Source: Streptomyces sp. CA-210063 (GTDB taxonomy: Bacteria > Actinomycetota > Actinomycetes > Streptomycetales > Streptomycetaceae). From it: a stretch of DNA of 64,000 nucleotides. The notes below the pieces were generated by a model, which ran no database searches, was not told the origin of the DNA, and was given only the letters and a program-made list of their open reading frames with translations. Below are positions 8,626-18,571 of the stretch, piece after piece. Location of the stretch: NCBI RefSeq assembly GCF_024612015.1, contig NZ_CP102512.1, positions 8,432,001-8,496,000 on the forward strand. Direction: 5' to 3'. Position 1 is the first letter of the stretch; every line of letters begins with the position of its first letter. The translations under genes and the position numbers were made by a program.

Positions 8626-9132
8626 AACGGTGGCGGGACGTCATCGAGGAGTGGCCCCCGCCGCGCATGGTGACGGCACCGGTGTTCGGCTGCCCGAACC
8701 CACGTGGCGGGGCTGAACACCTGAACAGGTCAACACATGACTTCCGGACACCCCGGGTGGCGTGCCCGGGTACTCCGACCGGCTGCCCCGGGCGGTGATC
8801 GCCGTCGCGGCCGACGATGATGGTGCTCGGCGCTCCCGGCTCTTGTGGCCTGCTCCGATGACCCGTTGGCCGGTCCTGCCGGAGGGTGCTCAGCATTCAC
8901 ACAGAACCCGCACATATGGCCTGGTGGGATCAACTGTCGTGGAGGGTGCGCCGGTTGGATCCCGAGAGGCCGAAAGGCACTCTTGCGTGGGTCGGCGGTG
9001 CGGCCGAATACTTCCCCCCAGCGCCTTGTCAGGGGCACGGCGTGTTCGGAATCCGGACCGATGTCCCTGATCTGCGCCTCACGGGCCCCGACCCCACGCG
9101 GGCCCCCGACTTCCCTTTGGAGGGAACGAATA
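8626..9132 (+). other. Long leader region before protease gene
   Basis: About 500 bp without a supportable gene. It should carry the promoter of the secreted protease at 9133, whose ribosome site GGAGGGAAC is at 9118-9126. Open frames across it lack credible starts and family resemblance. I see no long dyad. Confidence 0.45.
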
Positions 9133-10035
9133 GTGAGGATCAAGCGCACCACCCCCCGCAGCGGCATAGCGAGACGGACCCGGCTGATCGCCGTGACCAC
9201 CGGACTCGTGGCCGCGGCCGCCGTCACGGTTCCCAGCGCCAACGCGGCAGGCACCCAGACGTTCAGCGCCTCCGAACTGAAGAGCGCCAGCTCCTCGGTG
9301 CTCAAGGCCGACATCCCGGGCACCGCCTGGGCGATCGACCCGGCGACGGACAAGCTCGTCGTCACGATCGACAGCACCGTCTCCAAGACGGAGCTCGCGC
9401 AGATCAAGGAGGCGGCGGGCGAGAACGCCGACGCCCTGACGATCAAGCGGACCCCCGGCAAGTTCAACAAGCTGATCAAGGGCGGCGACGCCATCTATGC
9501 GAGTAGCTGGCGCTGCTCCCTCGGCTTCAACGTCCGCAGCGGGAGCACCTACTACTTCCTGACCGCGGGTCACTGCACCGACGGCGCGGGCACCTGGTAC
9601 TCCAACTCCGGCCGTACCACGGTCCTCGGCCCGACCACCGGGTCGAGCTTCCCGACCAACGACTACGGCATCGTGCGCTACAGCAACACGACCATCGCCA
9701 AGGACGGCACCGCCGGCAGCGTGGACATCACCAGCGCGGCCACCCCGAGCGTGGGCACCAACGTCATTCGCACCGGCTCCACCACCGGTACCCGCACCGG
9801 GCGCGTGACCGCCCTCAACGCGACCGTGAACTACGGTGGCGGCGACGTCGTCTACGGCATGATCCAGACCACGGTCTGCGCCGAGCCCGGCGACTCCGGC
9901 GGCCCGCTCTACGGCAGCAACGGTGTGGCGTACGGTCTCACCTCCGGCGGCAGCGGCAACTGCACCTCCGGTGGCACGACCTTCTTCCAGCCGGTCACCG
10001 AGGCCCTGAGCGCGTACGGCGTCAGCGTCTTCTAG
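9133..10035 (+). CDS. Secreted S1 serine protease (alpha-lytic/streptogrisin type)
   Basis: The 300-residue preproenzyme starts with a twin-basic region and hydrophobic leader ([18 protein letters not shown]) ending at ANAAG. A short prodomain of about 80 residues follows (ending near KGGDAIYAS), then a mature domain of about 190 residues. The catalytic triad is visible: His in LTAGHC, Asp in TNDYGIVRY, Ser in GDSGGPLYG. Cysteines pair as in streptogrisins (WRCSLGF with GHC; VCAEPGD with GNCTSGG). It would be exported and self-processed to digest protein outside the cell. The prodomain is the short single-copy type. GTG 9133 was chosen because GGAGGG precedes it and the leader begins there. 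It is the first of two related protease genes, with a second homologue 1.1 kb downstream. Confidence 0.93.
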
Positions 10036-10795: not shown

Positions 10796-11184
10796 TGCGC
10801 CTCGTGCTTCTGAAACCGATGCGGAAGCAACTCCCGCCCCTCGGGACCCGTTTGAAACCGGACCTCTGTAGGGTGATTTTCAGACAGGACTAGACCTCAC
10901 CCGTTGCGCAGGAGGTCGTTGCTTCCTGTGTTTGCAGTGTGAATTCCTGCGATCGCGAGGTGGGACGTTACCGGACGGTAATGGCATAGGGGGCGTGCGC
11001 TCGGGTTGTGTGCTCGGCCTGAAGTCGACCTTGTGTGTCCCCTGTGCGCCTAGGAATAGTTGGCGCCGCACAGTTGGCATGGACGCGGCGTTTTTTATCG
11101 TCCGTCGCCTCCTTGCCCGTACGCCTTCCGGTCGAATGGGGCCCCCACGCCCCTGTCGGCCAACCCCCCACAGGAGGACGTAAG
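10796..11184 (+). other. Leader region of second S1 protease
   Basis: About 390 bp with no supportable gene. It must include the promoter of the protease at 11185. The last bases give a strong ribosome site (AGGAGG, 11173-11178). A TTG preceded by AGGAGG near 10919 opens only a seven-codon frame and is not called. Confidence 0.45.
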
Positions 11185-12264
11185 TTGAAGCACCGACGCA
11201 TACCCAGGCGCCGTGCCGTCGTGACGGGTGCGGGCATCGCCGCACTGGTCGCCGCGGGAGTGACCTTCCAGACTGCGAACGCGAGTGAGACCGCACCGAC
11301 CCCCGAGCTGAAAGCGCTCTCCATCACGGCGGCCGGAAAGCTCGCCCTCACCCTCGACGCGGACCTCGGCACCGACGCGGCGGGAACGTACTACGACGCG
11401 AAGAGCAAGCTCCTCGTCGTGAACGTGCTCGACGAGGCCGCCGCCGAGACCGTCGAGGCGGCCGGCGCCAAGGCCCGCATCGTCGAGAACTCCCTCGCCG
11501 AACTGAAGGGCGCCCGGACGACCCTCAAGGAGGACGCCACCATCCCCGGTACCTCCTGGGCCACCGACCCGACCACCAACAAGGTCGTCGTCACCGCGGA
11601 CCGCACCGTCTCCGAGGCCGAGCTGGCCAAGCTGACGAAGGTCGTGGACGGCCTCGGCGCCAAGGCCGAACTCAAGCGCACCGAGGGAGAGTTCAAGCCC
11701 TTCGTCGCGGGCGGCGACGCCATCACCGGCGGCAGCGGCCGCTGCTCCCTCGGCTTCAACGTGGTCAAGGGCGGCGAGCCGTACTTCCTGACGGCCGGTC
11801 ACTGCACCGAGGGCATCTCCACGTGGTCGGCCGATGGCCAGGTCATCGGCGAGAACGAGGACTCCAGCTTCCCGGACAACGACTACGGCCTGGTCAAGTA
11901 CACCGCTGACGTCGATCACCCGAGCGAGGTCAACCTCTACAACGGCTCCACCCAGGCGATCAGCGGGGCCGCCGAGGCGACCGTCGGCATGGAGGTCACC
12001 CGCAGCGGCTCGACCACCCAGGTCCACAGCGGCACGGTCACCGGCCTCGACGCCACCGTGAACTACGGCAGCGGCGACATCGTCAACGGCCTCATCCAGA
12101 CCGACGTCTGCGCCGAGCCCGGCGACAGCGGCGGCTCGCTCTTCTCGGGCGACAAGGCCATCGGCCTCACCTCCGGCGGCAGCGGCGACTGCACCTCGGG
12201 CGGCGAGACCTTCTTCCAGCCCGTCACCGAGGCGCTGTCGGCGACCGGTACGCAGATCGGCTGA
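11185..12264 (+). CDS. Secreted streptogrisin-type S1 serine protease
   Basis: This 359-residue preproprotease has a basic leader (KHRRIPRRR, then a hydrophobic stretch to ANAS), a prodomain of about 150 residues of the alpha-lytic protease type (with [20 protein letters not shown]), and a mature domain beginning near [14 protein letters not shown]. The triad is His in FLTAGHC, Asp in DNDYGLVKY and Ser in [16 protein letters not shown] and [10 protein letters not shown] are hallmarks of streptogrisins A/B/E. The prodomain is needed for folding in this family. I chose TTG 11185 because AGGAGG lies seven bases upstream and the leader starts there. The longer in-frame ATG at 11035 would add 50 residues unlike a signal peptide. 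The mature domain resembles that of the gene at 9133, so the two are paralogues from an old duplication. The acidic mature domain is unlike trypsin-like enzymes. Confidence 0.93.
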
Positions 12265-12821: not shown

Positions 12822-12837
12822 TCGCACGCAAGTTCGA
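12822..12837 (+). promoter_or_regulatory. LexA-like SOS box upstream of dnaE2
   Basis: TCGCACGCAAGTTCGA differs at one position from the actinobacterial LexA dyad TCGAAC-N4-GTTCGA. It lies 80 bp before the chosen dnaE2 start and next to a possible -10 (TATGGT 12847-12852). Regulation of dnaE2 by LexA is well established in mycobacteria, so the site fits its context. Confidence 0.75.
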
Positions 12838-12916
12838 AAAGTGGTCTATGGTGGAGACGGGAAGGCTGTGAACTGATGTTCGAGTCGAGTGGTTGAGTCG
12901 AGTGCGGGAGGTGCGT

Positions 12917-15900
12917 GTGTCGGGGTTCGCGCATCTGCACACCGCCTCCGGGTTCTCCCTGCGCTATGGCGCCTCGCACCCGGAGCGGCTGGCCGAGCGT
13001 GCCTTCGAACGGGGCATGGACGCCCTCGCGCTCACCGACCGGGACACCCTCGCGGGCTCCGTCCGGTTCGCCAAGGCCTGCGCGAGGGCGGGGATCCGCC
13101 CGCTGTTCGGGGTGGAGCTGGCGGTGGCGTCTGCCGTCGAGGGGGCGGCCGTACGGCAGGCGCGGCGACGGACCCCCGTACGCGGTGGTGCCTTCATCGA
13201 CGAGTCGACTCCTCGGGTGGCGTTCCTCGCCCGGGACGGCGCCAAGGGGTGGGCCGAGCTATGCAGAATCGTTTCGGCGGCGCATGCGGGCGCGGGCGCG
13301 GGTGAGGGTGAGGGTGAGGGCGGGGGCAGAAGTGAGAGCCCGCCGCTGCTGCCCTGGTCGGAGTGTGCCGCCGAGGGCCTGACCGTGCTGCTCGGGCCGG
13401 CCTCCGACGTGGGGCGCGCGCTCGCCGCCGGGCGCCCCGACCGCGCCGCGAAGCTCCTCGTGCCCTGGCGGGAGGTGTACGGCGACGCCCTGCGTCTCGA
13501 AGCGGTGTGGCACGGCCGCGAGGGCACCGGCCCCGGTTCGCTGCGGCTGGCCGCCCGTACCGTCGGCTTCGCCGCCGAGCAGCGGATCCGTCCGGTGCTC
13601 AGCAACGCCGTCCGGTACGCCGACCCCGGTATGGGCCCGGTCGCCGACGTCCTGGACGCGGCCCGGCGGCTCGTCCCCGTCGACCCCCGGGGCGAGCTGG
13701 ACTCCGGGGAGGCCTGGCTCAAGGGGGCGGACGCCATGCTGGCCGTCGCCGAGCGGGTCGTCGAGGCCGCCGGCTACCGCCGCGGCGCCGCGTACCGCCT
13801 GCTGGAGCAGACCCGGGCCACGGCCGCCGAGTGCCTCGTCGACCCGGAGGACGACCTCGGCCTCGGCACCGTCCACTTCCCCGAGCCGCACCTCGTCGGC
13901 GCGGGCCGCCGCACCGCCCAGCGGGCGCTGGCCTCACGGGCGGCGGCCGGGATGATGCGGCACGGCTACGACACCCGGCGTGCGTACTGGGACCGGATGC
14001 ACCAGGAGCTGGACGTCATCGCCCACCACGGCTTCGCCTCCTATTTCCTGACGGTCGCTCAGGTCGTCGACGACGTGCGGAAGATGGGGATCAGGGTCGC
14101 CGCGCGGGGCTCCGGCGCCGGCTCCCTCGTCAACCATCTCCTCGGCATCGCCCACGCCGACCCCGTCGAACACGGTCTGCTGATGGAGCGGTTCCTGTCC
14201 AAGCGGCGGGTCGCGCTGCCCGACATCGACATCGATGTGGAGTCCGCGCGCCGCCTGGAGGTCTACCGCGCGATCATCGACCGGTTCGGCACGGAGCGGG
14301 TCGCGACCGTCGCGATGCCGGAGACGTACCGTGTCCGCCACGCCGTCCGCGACGTGGGTGCGGCCCTCTCCCTGGACCCCGCCGACATCGACCGGATCGC
14401 CAAGTCCTTCCCGCACATCCGGGCGCGGGACGCGCGGGCCGCGCTCGAAGAGCTGCCCGAACTCAGGAAGCTGGCCAGGGAGTTTCAGCGGGAAGGGGCG
14501 AAGTACGGCCGTCTGTGGGAGCTGGTCGAATCCCTCGACGCCCTTCCGCGCGGAGTCGCCATGCACCCGTGCGGGGTGCTCCTCTCCGACGCCTCCCTCC
14601 TCGCCCGTACGCCGGTGATGCCGACCAGCGGCGAGGGGTTCCCCATGTCCCAGTTCGACAAGGACGACGTCGAGGACCTCGGGCTGCTCAAGCTCGATGT
14701 GCTGGGCGTGCGGATGCAGTCGGCGATGGCGCACGCGGTGGCGGAGGTGGCGCGGGCGACGGGGGAGCGGGTCGACCTGGACGCGCTCGACTTCGAGCGG
14801 GGCGCGGGCGACCCGGCGACCTATCGACTCATCCGTTCCACCGAGACGTTGGGCTGCTTCCAGATCGAGTCGCCGGGGCAGCGGGACCTGGTGGGGCGGC
14901 TCCAGCCGGCCACCTTCCACGACCTGGTGGTCGACATCTCCCTCTTCCGGCCCGGTCCGGTCGCCGCCGACATGGTGCGGCCGTTCATCGCGGCCCGGCA
15001 CGGGCGGGCGCCGGTCCGCTACCCGCACGACGATCTGGCGGAGCCGCTGCGGGAGACGTACGGCGTGGTCGTCTTCCATGAGCAGATCATCGACATCGTG
15101 CACCTCATGACCGGCTGCGGCCGGGACGAGGCGGACCAGGTGCGGCGCGGGCTCTCCGACCCCGAGTCGCAGGGGCGGATCCGGGTCTGGTTCGCGCAGC
15201 GCGCGGCCGCGGAGGGGTACGACGCCGAGACGATCGCCCGGACCTGGGAGATCGTCGAGGCCTTCGGGTCGTACGGCTTCTGCAAGGCGCACGCGGTGGC
15301 TTTCGCGGTGCCGACGTACCAGTCGGCGTGGCTGAAGGCGCACCATCCGGCGGCGTTCTACGCCGGGTTGCTCACGCACGACCCCGGGATGTACCCGAAG
15401 CGGCTGCTGCTGGCGGACGCGCGGCGGCGCGGGGTGCCGATCCTGCCGTTGGACGTGAACCGGTCGGCGGTCGCCCACCGTATCGAACTGGTGTCTGAAT
15501 CAAGGGGGTCGGGAGAGGAGAAGGTGTGGGGAATCCGGCTCGCCCTCTCCGATGTGCACGGCATCAGTGAGGCCGAGGCGGCGCGGATCGCGGACGGGCA
15601 GCCGTACGCCTCGCTGCTGGACTTCTGGGAGCGGGCGCGGCCGAGCCGACCGCTGGCTCAAAGACTGGCCCAGGTGGGCGCGTTGGACGCCTTCGGTGCC
15701 AACCGGCGTGATCTGCAACTGCACTTGACCGAGCTGCACCGGGGCAGCCGGGGTGCGGGCGGTGGCCAGCTGCCGTTGGCGGGTGGGCGCAGGACCGCGT
15801 CGGCCGGTCTGCCGGACCTGTCCTCCGCCGAGAGGCTCAGCGCCGAGCTGGGCGTGCTGTCGATGGACGTCTCGCGCAACCTGATGGACGACCACCGGGA

Positions 15901-16465
15901 GTTCCTCGACGAGTTGGGCGTGGTGTCGGCGCGGCGGCTGCGGGAGGCGCGGCACGGGGAGACGGTGCTGGTCGCGGGCGCCAAGGCGGCGACCCAGACC
16001 CCGCCGATCCGCTCCGGCAAACGGGTCATCTTCACCACCCTCGACGACGGCACCGGCCTGGTCGACCTCGCTTTCTTCGACGACTCCCACGACGCCTGCG
16101 CCCACACCGTCTTCCACTCCTGGCTGCTGCTGGTGCGTGGGGTGGTACAGCGGCGCGGCCCGCGCAGCCTCAGCGTGGTGGGCGCGGCCGCCTGGAACCT
16201 CGCCGAGCTGGTGGAGCTGCGGCGCGAGGGCGGCCTCGACGCGGTGGCGCCCCGGCTGGCGGAGCCCGTGGACGCCGGGGGCGCACCGGCGAGCGGCGAC
16301 ACCGATGGCGCACCGGCGAGCGGCGACACCGGCCGCCGGATCCGCATGCCCACCGGTTACGAGATGCACCCGTGGGCCGATCTGCGGCCGGCGGGCGCGG
16401 AGCCCTCACAAGGTCCTTCTCAGGTACGGAAGTTGTGGCACCAGAGTCCAGGGAGTGCGGGATGA
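12917..16465 (+). CDS. dnaE2: Error-prone DNA polymerase III alpha subunit (DnaE2/ImuC)
   Basis: The 1182-residue polymerase begins with a PHP domain (FAHLHTASGFSLRYGASHPE and ALALTDRDTLAG). The C-family polymerase core has MERFLSKRRVALPDIDIDV, where the Asp-x-Asp supplies catalytic metal ligands, and later EDLGLLKLDVLG. Then follow the helix-hairpin-helix region (VHGISEAEAARI) and an OB-fold (FTTLDDGTGLVDLAFF). The lack of the long C-terminal tau-binding extension marks the DnaE2/ImuC type, which carries out mutagenic bypass of DNA damage. GTG 12917 is preferred: GGGAG lies about six bases upstream and the PHP domain starts at once. TTG 12893 and two other GTGs are alternatives. The C-terminal tail carries a duplicated 24-base stretch encoding GAPASGDT. 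A LexA-like box lies upstream, and the stop codon overlaps the next start (ATGA). Confidence 0.96.
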   Translation: MSGFAHLHTASGFSLRYGASHPERLAERAFERGMDALALTDRDTLAGSVRFAKACARAGIRPLFGVELAVASAVEGAAVRQARRRTPVRGGAFIDESTPRVAFLARDGAKGWAELCRIVSAAHAGAGAGEGEGEGGGRSESPPLLPWSECAAEGLTVLLGPASDVGRALAAGRPDRAAKLLVPWREVYGDALRLEAVWHGREGTGPGSLRLAARTVGFAAEQRIRPVLSNAVRYADPGMGPVADVLDAARRLVPVDPRGELDSGEAWLKGADAMLAVAERVVEAAGYRRGAAYRLLEQTRATAAECLVDPEDDLGLGTVHFPEPHLVGAGRRTAQRALASRAAAGMMRHGYDTRRAYWDRMHQELDVIAHHGFASYFLTVAQVVDDVRKMGIRVAARGSGAGSLVNHLLGIAHADPVEHGLLMERFLSKRRVALPDIDIDVESARRLEVYRAIIDRFGTERVATVAMPETYRVRHAVRDVGAALSLDPADIDRIAKSFPHIRARDARAALEELPELRKLAREFQREGAKYGRLWELVESLDALPRGVAMHPCGVLLSDASLLARTPVMPTSGEGFPMSQFDKDDVEDLGLLKLDVLGVRMQSAMAHAVAEVARATGERVDLDALDFERGAGDPATYRLIRSTETLGCFQIESPGQRDLVGRLQPATFHDLVVDISLFRPGPVAADMVRPFIAARHGRAPVRYPHDDLAEPLRETYGVVVFHEQIIDIVHLMTGCGRDEADQVRRGLSDPESQGRIRVWFAQRAAAEGYDAETIARTWEIVEAFGSYGFCKAHAVAFAVPTYQSAWLKAHHPAAFYAGLLTHDPGMYPKRLLLADARRRGVPILPLDVNRSAVAHRIELVSESRGSGEEKVWGIRLALSDVHGISEAEAARIADGQPYASLLDFWERARPSRPLAQRLAQVGALDAFGANRRDLQLHLTELHRGSRGAGGGQLPLAGGRRTASAGLPDLSSAERLSAELGVLSMDVSRNLMDDHREFLDELGVVSARRLREARHGETVLVAGAKAATQTPPIRSGKRVIFTTLDDGTGLVDLAFFDDSHDACAHTVFHSWLLLVRGVVQRRGPRSLSVVGAAAWNLAELVELRREGGLDAVAPRLAEPVDAGGAPASGDTDGAPASGDTGRRIRMPTGYEMHPWADLRPAGAEPSQGPSQVRKLWHQSPGSAG

Positions 16466-17430
16466 CCATCCTCTGCGTACGTTTCCAGCTGCCACCGGGG
16501 TACGAGGCGGCCCTGCCCGGTCTCCTCGGCCTGCTCGAGGACTTCACCCCGGTCGTGGAGGCGCTGCCGCCCGACGGGGCGCTGGCCGATCTGCGGGGCG
16601 CCGAACGGTACTTCGGCCGGGACGCCGAGGAGCTGGCCCGGCTGATCCGGGTCCGCGCCCTCGCGCTGTACGGCGTCGACTGTGTGATCGGCGCCGGGCC
16701 GGGGCCGCTGCTGGCGCGGCTGGCGCTGGGGGCGGCCACGCCCGGGTCGCCGTGCGCGGTCCCCGAGGACCTCGTCGTGGACTTCCTCGCCGAACTACCC
16801 GTCCGCGCGCTGCCCGGGGTCGGCACCGCGACCGCCCGCACGCTGTGCGAGTACGGCCTCGACACCCTCGGCGGGGTCGCCGGCGCGCCCCTGTCCACGC
16901 TCCAGCGCCTGGTCGGCGCGCGGACCGGCCGCGAACTGCACGAGAAGGCGAACGGCGTCGACCGCGGCCGGGTCGTACCGAACGCCGTCGCGTGCTCCCT
17001 CGCCACCGAACAGCCCTTCCCCCACGACGAGTTGAACCCGGACCGGCATCGCCGCGCCCTGCTCGCCGGCACCGAGGAACTGGGCTCCCGGCTGCGCGCC
17101 CTGGAGAAGGTCTGCCGCACCCTCACCCTCACCGTCCGCTACGCCGACCGTTCTTCGACGACCCGCACCCGCACCCTCAAGGAACCGACCGCCCACTCCC
17201 CGGCGCTGACCTCGGTGGCCTACGGCCTGTACGACGCCCTCGGCCTCCAGCGCGCCCGCGTCCGCGCGATCGCCCTGCGCGTCGAGGGGCTGACCCCCGC
17301 CGACCAGGCCTCCCACCAGCTCGCCTTCGACCCCGCCGACGAGAAGGCCCGCCGGATCGAGGAGGTCGCCGACCGGGCCCGCGCGAAGTTCGGCCCGCAC
17401 GCGGTGACACCGGGCACGCTGGCCGCGTAA
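16462..17430 (+). CDS. Degenerate Y-family polymerase, ImuB-like
   Basis: The 322-residue protein matches Y-family polymerases in the helix-hairpin-helix thumb (LPVRALPGVGTATARTLCEYGLDTLGGV) and little-finger region (LRALEKVCRTLTLTVRYAD, then the TSVAYGLYDAL segment). The catalytic palm is broken: the first metal-ligand block, normally xHVDMDxFxA, reads ILCVRFQLP, and the SIDEA block reads LPPDGALAD, leaving one Asp and no Glu. It is also shorter than Pol IV (usually 350-420). Mycobacterial ImuB likewise lacks the catalytic acids and bridges DnaE2 to the beta clamp; I infer the same role. QLAFD near the end (about 299-303) is a candidate clamp-binding motif. ATG 16462 overlaps the dnaE2 stop, so translation is coupled. 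No ImuA-like gene adjoins. Confidence 0.85.
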   Translation: MTILCVRFQLPPGYEAALPGLLGLLEDFTPVVEALPPDGALADLRGAERYFGRDAEELARLIRVRALALYGVDCVIGAGPGPLLARLALGAATPGSPCAVPEDLVVDFLAELPVRALPGVGTATARTLCEYGLDTLGGVAGAPLSTLQRLVGARTGRELHEKANGVDRGRVVPNAVACSLATEQPFPHDELNPDRHRRALLAGTEELGSRLRALEKVCRTLTLTVRYADRSSTTRTRTLKEPTAHSPALTSVAYGLYDALGLQRARVRAIALRVEGLTPADQASHQLAFDPADEKARRIEEVADRARAKFGPHAVTPGTLAA

Positions 17431-17701: not shown

Positions 17702-18571
17702 ATGCTGCCCTGGAAACGCCTGCTCAGACCCTTGGCCGCCCTGTGCCTGGCCACCGCCGCGACCGTCGTCCCCACCGCCGCAGCCGAGGCCGCCGACACG
17801 GCCGCCGCGCCCAGCCGTGGCTGGAACGACTACTCCTGCAAACCCTCCAGCGCCCACCCCCGCCCCGTCGTCCTGGTCCACGGAACCTTCGCCAACTCCG
17901 TCGACAACTGGCTGGGCCTCGCGCCCTACCTCGTGCACCGCGGCTACTGCGTCTACTCCCTCGACTACGGGCAGCTCCCCGGCGTCGCCTTCTTCAACGG
18001 GCTCGGCCCGGTCGACAAGTCGGCGGAGCAACTCGACGCCTTCGTCGACAAGGTGCTCGCCGCGACCGGCGCCCCCGAGACCGACCTCGTCGGCCACTCG
18101 CAGGGCGGCATGATGCCCCGCTACTACCTCAAGTTCCTCGGCGGAGCCGCGGAGGTGAACGCCCTCGTCGGCATCGCGCCCTCCAACCACGGCACCACGC
18201 TGAACGGCCTCACCGAACTCCTCACGTACTTCCCCGGTGCCGGCGACCTGCTGTCCACCACCACCCCGGCCCTCGCCGACCAGGTGGCCGGATCCGCCTT
18301 CATGACCAAGCTCAACGCGGGCGGCGACACCGTCCCGGGCGTCACCTACACGGTCCTCGCCACCAAGTACGACGAGGTGGTCACGCCGTACGAGTCCCAG
18401 TTCCTCAGCGGGCCCGGTGTACGCAACATCGTCATCCAGGACCTCTGCGCGCTCGACCTCTCCGAACACGCGGCGGTCGGCCTCCTCGACCGCATCGCGT
18501 TCCACGAGGTCGTCAACGCCCTGGATCCGGCCCGTGCCACCCCGACGACCTGCCTCTCGGCCGTCGGCTGA
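17702..18571 (+). CDS. Secreted alpha/beta-hydrolase lipase (EstA/class 2 lipase-like)
   Basis: The 289-residue secreted enzyme has a signal peptide (LLRPLAALCLATAATVV, cleavage near AEAAD). The oxyanion-hole segment is VVLVHGTFANS, the nucleophile elbow is DLVGHSQGGMMPRYYL, the acid is the Asp in LATKYDEVVTPYES and the base is the His in DLSEHAAVG. Six other residues are cysteines spread in a pattern typical of disulfide-stabilised extracellular lipases. It would hydrolyse acylglycerols or other esters outside the cell. AAGGAG lies eight bases before ATG 17702. From memory it corresponds to S. coelicolor SCO1735, a characterised extracellular lipase. The gene is monocistronic, followed by a strong terminator. 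Confidence 0.92.
   Translation: MLPWKRLLRPLAALCLATAATVVPTAAAEAADTAAAPSRGWNDYSCKPSSAHPRPVVLVHGTFANSVDNWLGLAPYLVHRGYCVYSLDYGQLPGVAFFNGLGPVDKSAEQLDAFVDKVLAATGAPETDLVGHSQGGMMPRYYLKFLGGAAEVNALVGIAPSNHGTTLNGLTELLTYFPGAGDLLSTTTPALADQVAGSAFMTKLNAGGDTVPGVTYTVLATKYDEVVTPYESQFLSGPGVRNIVIQDLCALDLSEHAAVGLLDRIAFHEVVNALDPARATPTTCLSAVG

Follow-up and report, generated by a model that had tools for sequence, protein, structure and literature searches.

What can a relative of the Y-family DNA polymerases contribute to a cell if it lacks the parts that polymerization requires? The question is raised by a gene pair of Streptomyces sp. CA-210063, in which dnaE2, encoding an error-prone C-family polymerase, overlaps dinB2, encoding a short Y-family protein. 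The pair lies in the window G000:C1:8432001-8496000, which denotes here the whole analyzed stretch of 64,000 nucleotides within a genome of 10.86 Mb on one contig. A preliminary description of this DNA had seen in it an SOS mutasome consisting of DnaE2 and a catalytically dead, shortened partner. The anatomy of the pair, the loss of parts critical for catalysis, the conservation, the SOS box, and the gene overlap are established by the present analysis. The reading that we consider likely is that of a LexA-regulated operon, in which DnaE2 would be the polymerase and DinB2 a scaffold positioning DnaE2 together with the clamp and RecA. DinB2 probably acts as an adaptor, and a 'mutasome' carrying out mutagenic bypass in the cell is a prediction. 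The features are as follows.

12870..12881, + strand: LexA (SOS) box GAACTGATGTTC, 5' of dnaE2, the sole perfect GAACN4GTTC of the window
12893..16465, + strand: dnaE2, error-prone C-family polymerase, 1190 amino acids from TTG (Pfam domains)
14222..14230, + strand: catalytic DID (PDIDID) of DnaE2; the third Asp (KLDVLG) is at 14696-14698
16462..16465, + strand: ATGA, dnaE2 stop overlapping the dinB2 start (sequence)
16462..17430, + strand: dinB2 (scDinB2-like), 322-amino-acid fingerless, catalytically dead Y-family protein
16468..16485, + strand: ILCVRF, first strand of the palm, which reads ILHVDMD in active relatives (alignment)
16567..16581, + strand: PPDGA, corresponding to the SLDEA block, with Asp38 retained and Gly39 in place of the Glu (alignment)
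16807..16962, + strand: thumb (HhH) domain, PF21999, residues 116-167, 9e-10
16996..17319, + strand: little finger domain, PF11799 (IMS_C), residues 179-286, 7.3e-20
17317..17331, + strand: clamp-binding-like motif QLAFD, residues 286-290 (conservation)
17335..17421, + strand: RecA-NT-like C-terminal helix with FG (ARRIEEVADRARAKFGPHAVTPGTLA; model, conservation, likeness by eye)

Anatomy of DinB2

Profile, structure, and alignment data agree on where DinB2 is shortened. The match to the catalytic IMS domain of Pfam starts at profile position 72-75 (positions 75-146 of 148 are covered by the window protein), the NCBIfam Pol IV models pair their positions 79-123 onward with query residues 13-24 onward, and the best PDB match places query residue 14 opposite residue 79. 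The highest score that a Pol IV model reaches on DinB2 is 150.2 bits, compared with cut-offs of at least 256. Thumb and little finger are retained, as had been proposed, and are matched by IMS_HHH_1 (9e-10) and IMS_C (7.3e-20). In an alignment of 27 short sequences with 12 full-length ones (the DinB1 of the same genome and 11 actinomycete PolY proteins out of 13 fetched; L171 and L181 were omitted because the start pattern missed them), the window protein keeps the first palm strand, skips the fingers (approximately 60 residues) directly after it, and continues from the helix that precedes SLDEA. The fingers block is missing in 27/27 short and present in 12/12 full-length sequences. A wider set of 343 aligned short relatives, a non-random sample made up of top matches and divergent loci, gave a block length of 7-35 residues versus 59-60 in the 12 full-length proteins. 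The distance from the first strand to the SLDEA equivalent is 31-39 residues in the 325 of the 343 short proteins in which the strand pattern matched, versus 95-96.

The metal site is broken at two positions. HVDMD is reduced to CVRF in the window protein, with Arg in place of the first metal-binding Asp, and none of the 343 short relatives has [VLIA]DxD ahead of the SLDEA equivalent. Since the wide alignment displaces the first strand (gap at the first-Asp column in 338/343), this point was re-checked by pattern independently of the column; Arg occupies the place in 316 of the 325 proteins with a strand-pattern match. The Glu of the SLDEA equivalent is kept in 0/343 proteins (A in 162, G in 155), whereas the Asp is kept in 213, including the window protein. 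The preliminary description had placed the two metal blocks (ILCVRF and LPPDG) correctly, but the second block is not fully lost, as its Asp survives and only the Glu is gone. An intact catalytic set after correct alignment, which had been named beforehand as a refutation of the dead-partner claim, did not emerge: the first Asp and the Glu are absent in 343/343. A hidden longer N-terminus was also considered and rejected; the in-frame extension from 16372 (352 amino acids) overlaps dnaE2 and bears no likeness to fingers by eye. With neither the Asp-Asp-Glu set nor the fingers of an active Pol IV, DinB2 should, judging from its sequence, be unable to polymerize, and the claim of a dead, shortened Y-family protein stands.

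Beyond the little finger, two further elements are conserved. Q286 and D290 of the clamp-like motif are invariant in 74 sequences, and a QLxFD/QIxLD-type pattern occurs in 342 of the 343 relatives, so that the candidate QLAFD motif of the preliminary description is a real feature. It is followed by a helix at residues 291-310 in the predicted structure. E300, D304, and G311 of this tail are invariant and F310 is conserved to at least 90% in the 74 sequences, and a helix ending in [KRH][FY]G was found by pattern in 342/343. The likeness of the tail to the RecA N-terminus was judged by eye, without a profile; the protein ends approximately 10 residues past this helix, at residue 322. Foldseek and VIA matches comprised DinB, Dpo4, iota, eta, kappa, and Rev1, with no ImuB structure among the matches listed. 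A protein search with a 63-amino-acid piece, a query ill suited to the search tool, gave no match. Taken together, DinB2 appears as a palm–thumb–little finger platform with a putative clamp-binding motif and a RecA-NT-like tail. The genome encodes two recA genes (2682243-2683028 and 9290936-9291721, both on the minus strand; whole RecA model, E <1e-142; L206 and L207), and hence two candidate RecA partners for the tail.

The operon, its SOS control, and a possible mechanism

DnaE2 contains the Pfam domains PHP, Pol3 alpha, finger, HHH_6, and OB and scores 631.6 bits with the NCBIfam error-prone polymerase model, below its cut-off of 939. Both Asp of the DxD and the third Asp are kept in 83/83 aligned Streptomyces-type DnaE2 sequences; these positions are presumably catalytic, as in E. 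coli DnaE. Translation starts at TTG 12893 or, likelier by eye, at GTG 12917, which stands behind GGGAGG. The reported ATGA overlap of the two genes is present at 16462-16465. Of 33 distinct loci with an upstream dnaE2, 29 have an in-frame start codon at precisely −4 relative to the stop of dnaE2, a count in which the script favored the start nearest −4, the 29 resulted from 37 rows de-duplicated by genome, L146, L148, L154, and L155 (unreliable dnaE2 stop) were scored as misses, and L147, L153, L156, L197, and L201 were left out because dnaE2 was absent from the stretch. The overlap context GGGATGAC was found in 81/81 loci, that of the window included, and the text of PMC3901139 gives a 4-bp overlap for most Streptomyces.

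Of 73 loci of named Streptomyces (L003-L082), 70 have a perfect LexA box in the 200 bp preceding dnaE2, and the other three have a box with one mismatch. Among 18 more divergent Streptomyces loci, one box was perfect and 15 had at most one mismatch, and 11 non-Streptomyces dnaE2 loci yielded no perfect box and a single one with one mismatch. The background in random 200-bp stretches at 70% GC is 0.14% for perfect boxes and 4.6% for up to one mismatch. The interval of the preliminary description began at 12822, ahead of the gene, and includes the box at 12870-12881. A second LexA-like site at 12824 (one mismatch) was rejected as being at chance level, as the window has 26 sites with up to one mismatch versus 19.6 expected. 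With its SOS box 5' of dnaE2, the pair qualifies for the LexA regulon; in vivo induction is known only from S. venezuelae, for which PMC9380542 reports that LexA binds upstream and that mitomycin C induces the two genes 30.6- and 13.7-fold.

A possible course of events can be drawn from these features. After DNA damage, one mRNA would yield both DnaE2 and DinB2. The little finger of DinB2 may seat the protein on the primer-template, and DinB2 would bind the clamp and a RecA protomer. DnaE2 would be held at blocked ends, probably via the thumb of DinB2, as modeled in print for ImuB. Extension would be left to DnaE2, with DinB2 only positioning it, and RecA would stand in for ImuA.

On either side of the pair, the translations suggest by eye two secreted serine-protease-like open reading frames (8845-10035 and 11035-12264) preceding dnaE2 and a lipase-like open reading frame (17702-18571) downstream.

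Conservation, plasmid-borne relatives, and rival explanations

DinB2 was detected with a best E of at most 4.5e-47 in 181 of 199 sampled Streptomyces genomes; 14 gave weaker matches only (E 1.5e-30 or worse) and four none. DinB1 is present in 195/199 and in 194/194 good genomes. Among named species in the collection searched, those with the closest dinB2 relatives are S. caniscabiei, S. scabiei, and S. stelliscabiei (91-93%). The relatives retrieved from outside the genus, in other families of its class, are longer, and 12 of 13 have both DMDAF and SLDEAF (only SLDEAF was found in L171, both motifs in L181). A tree of 63 rows separates all 51 short DinB2s from the 12 full-length relatives across one branch (support 100) and divides the short proteins into two main subgroups (support A 81, B 99), the trees being made by a quick method with a long-branch warning and with ImuB outside the tree. 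In three genomes (L194-L196; G173, G134, G038), a dnaE2 of native type has next to it a dinB2 from the largely plasmid-borne or orphan subgroup (DinB2 split 99), whereas the DnaE2 nests near that of the window (support 97). This points to an apparent in-place displacement of dinB2 by a far relative, with dnaE2 retained.

Relatives of a second-subgroup DinB2 occur on 128 plasmid records, 125 of them from Streptomyces; of the 11 records retrieved, one is annotated as circular and the other 10 as linear. On a 36.9-kb S. anulatus plasmid, dnaE2 is directly followed by a dinB2-like gene, pFRL3 (L230) carries a dnaE2-dinB2 cassette with its own lexA, divergent and upstream, and in Streptomyces sp. 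S8 a plasmid likewise has a dinB2-like gene directly behind dnaE2, with Ku and LigD nearby. Ku, LigD, or ATP-dependent ligase genes are close to the DinB2 relatives of L226, L228, L242, L243, L245, and L246. Of 18 records with listed matches to both Ku and dinB2/dnaE2, 7 have the two within 10 kb, versus 2.2 expected under uniform placement, a figure based on non-independent matches among those listed. A LexA-controlled plasmid operon annotated 'DNA polymerase IV' is included in the list of PMC9380542, as far as its text shows.

Several observations weigh against the scaffold reading. The fifth position of QLAFD is D, where the consensus quoted in the text of PMC3919608, QL[S/D]LF, has F, and 71 of the 83 aligned DnaE2 sequences have a QLPL motif of their own; DinB2 may therefore be dispensable for clamp access. 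The predicted structure of DinB2 reached a predicted template modeling score (pTM) of 0.60, which makes the relative placement of its domains uncertain. Some plasmid DinB2s are orphans, with dnaE2 absent from the fetched flanks, and the apparent replacement of dinB2 in one Streptomyces lineage while dnaE2 stayed indicates that the pair is not tightly co-evolving. Deletion of dnaE2 in S. coelicolor left UV survival, UV mutagenesis, and end patching unaffected although the gene is induced, according to passages in PMC3901139 and PMC3919608 that cite Tsai 2012; the same passages do not permit the SOS mutasome of the preliminary description to be treated as established.

In another explanation, DinB2 mainly serves the ends or breaks of linear replicons as a non-catalytic adaptor that brings any polymerase present (DinB1, Pol I, or DnaE2). 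The text of PMC4513846 states that linear, but not circular, replicons need DinB1, DinB2, or both, and the dispensability of DnaE2 for end patching fits, as do the predominantly linear plasmid records and the neighborhood of Ku and LigD. Yet DinB2 is never alone in the sample, DinB1 being present in all good genomes, and is itself seen in only 181/199; one of the plasmids with a cassette has a circular record, and the Ku count is based on non-independent matches among those listed. We regard this explanation as unlikely. The same doubtful standing is given to its extended form, in which fingerless DinB2 would be a portable DNA-end/clamp/RecA adaptor of Streptomycetaceae, spread on mainly linear plasmids, often beside non-homologous end joining genes, able to take the place of the chromosomal dinB2 next to a dnaE2 of native type, and aiding telomere patching via another polymerase; it would explain how a non-polymerizing protein can replace DinB1 in the published genetics. 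A telomere role is otherwise puzzling for a dead protein, and the silent dnaE2 mutant is likewise unlike a simple mutasome. It is scarcely credible that dinB2 is decaying like a pseudogene and persists only because it lies behind dnaE2. The fingers and catalytic residues are gone, 14 of the 195 sampled genomes with any match gave weak ones only, and single copies look broken (P0102 is without the tail motif, and the L146 match is without the first 65 residues), but dinB2 is under purifying selection, which largely refutes this explanation: the ratio of nonsynonymous to synonymous substitutions (dN/dS) between the window gene and 43 same-length relatives (the other 37 of the 80 loci were excluded because of indels or length) has a median of 0.37 (range 0.20-0.46), the first 100 codons, which encode the palm remnant, are more constrained than the remainder (0.28 vs. 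0.40), 48 columns are invariant among 74 sequences, and the protein is retained across two deep subgroups. Very improbable, too, is a true ImuB with its ImuB-C domain encoded elsewhere. The logic of an inactive Y-family protein beside an SOS-induced DnaE2 is the same, and the S. coelicolor pair is labeled an imuBC cassette in a passage of one review, but DUF6504, taken by inference as ImuB-C with Caulobacter as the one control over the cut-off, had no match above the cut-off or at significant E in DinB2 or the whole genome. It was detected in 27 of 60 genomes of the class and in none of the four Streptomyces among those scanned (the present one included), and the 51 short DinB2s separate from the 12 full-length relatives in the tree, which was built without ImuB. 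On the absence of DUF6504 from protein and genome, ImuB proper was rejected.

If the adaptor reading is true, a C-family translesion polymerase has in DinB2 a very small natural scaffold of the Y family, through which the roles of ImuB can be separated into parts. A conflict in the literature is also sharpened, as one of the two 'translesion polymerases' credited with supporting telomere replication in Streptomyces is without what a polymerase needs.

Relation to known systems

DinB1 (DNA polymerase IV), encoded at G000:C1:8903353-8904699 in this genome, shares the Y-family palm, thumb, and little finger with DinB2 but keeps ILHLDMDAF, the fingers, and SLDEAF. The full-length actinomycete PolY-core proteins (L169-L181, L234) are approximately 36-42% identical to DinB2 and have the QL motif position and the FG tail in 11/11 aligned sequences; L171, L179, and L234 have a dnaE2 match upstream. 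Unlike DinB2, the protein of L234 has both DMDAF and SLDEAF. At this locus (G406:C122), a DUF6504 gene, dnaE2, and the full-length PolY gene stand in a row, which resembles a published system type.

ImuB of M. tuberculosis and Pseudomonas is likewise a dead Y-family partner of an SOS-induced DnaE2 with a RecA-NT-like motif, and some ImuBs are also structurally reduced, as stated in the text of PMC12926913. DinB2 of the window differs in being without the ImuB-C domain and in that no ImuA was found: none is encoded next to the pair, as noted before, and genome-wide only the two recA genes matched the RecA/ImuA models significantly (no control genome passed the ImuA cut-off). The ImuB-like logic proposed for the pair, DnaE2 with a dead Y-family protein and no adjacent ImuA gene, is supported by the sequence.

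The closest counterpart is the scDinB2-like or DnaE2B-iPolY-RecA system (S. coelicolor DinB2, CAB50953.1; PMC6511836, PMC12926913). According to the text of PMC6511836, S. coelicolor DinB2 belongs to the inactive members of the Y family and is coupled with DnaE2 but lacks ImuB-C; such groups are described as carrying a RecA-NT-like motif without ImuA. PMC12926913 presents the DnaE2B-iPolY-RecA system as found mostly in Streptomyces and as a predicted complex, the complex models exceeding its thresholds for its 11 association types. The window protein shows the disrupted active site, the dnaE2 operon, and the RecA-NT-like motif of this group, an assignment based on genus, synteny, and described features. 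In the passages covered, these two papers do not mention that the fingers are lost completely, and the literature passages covered contain no statement of it, of partner displacement, or of plasmid cassettes. The genus, the dnaE2 operon, the inactive Y-family member, the RecA-NT motif, the absence of ImuB-C, and a presumed absence of ImuA are shared, with no essential difference. The preliminary description was right in seeing a distinct variant of the mutasome, but the variant is not strictly two-component, because RecA is a predicted third component, and it is not new: the pair is the Streptomyces dnaE2-dinB2 operon, published in 2019 and 2026.

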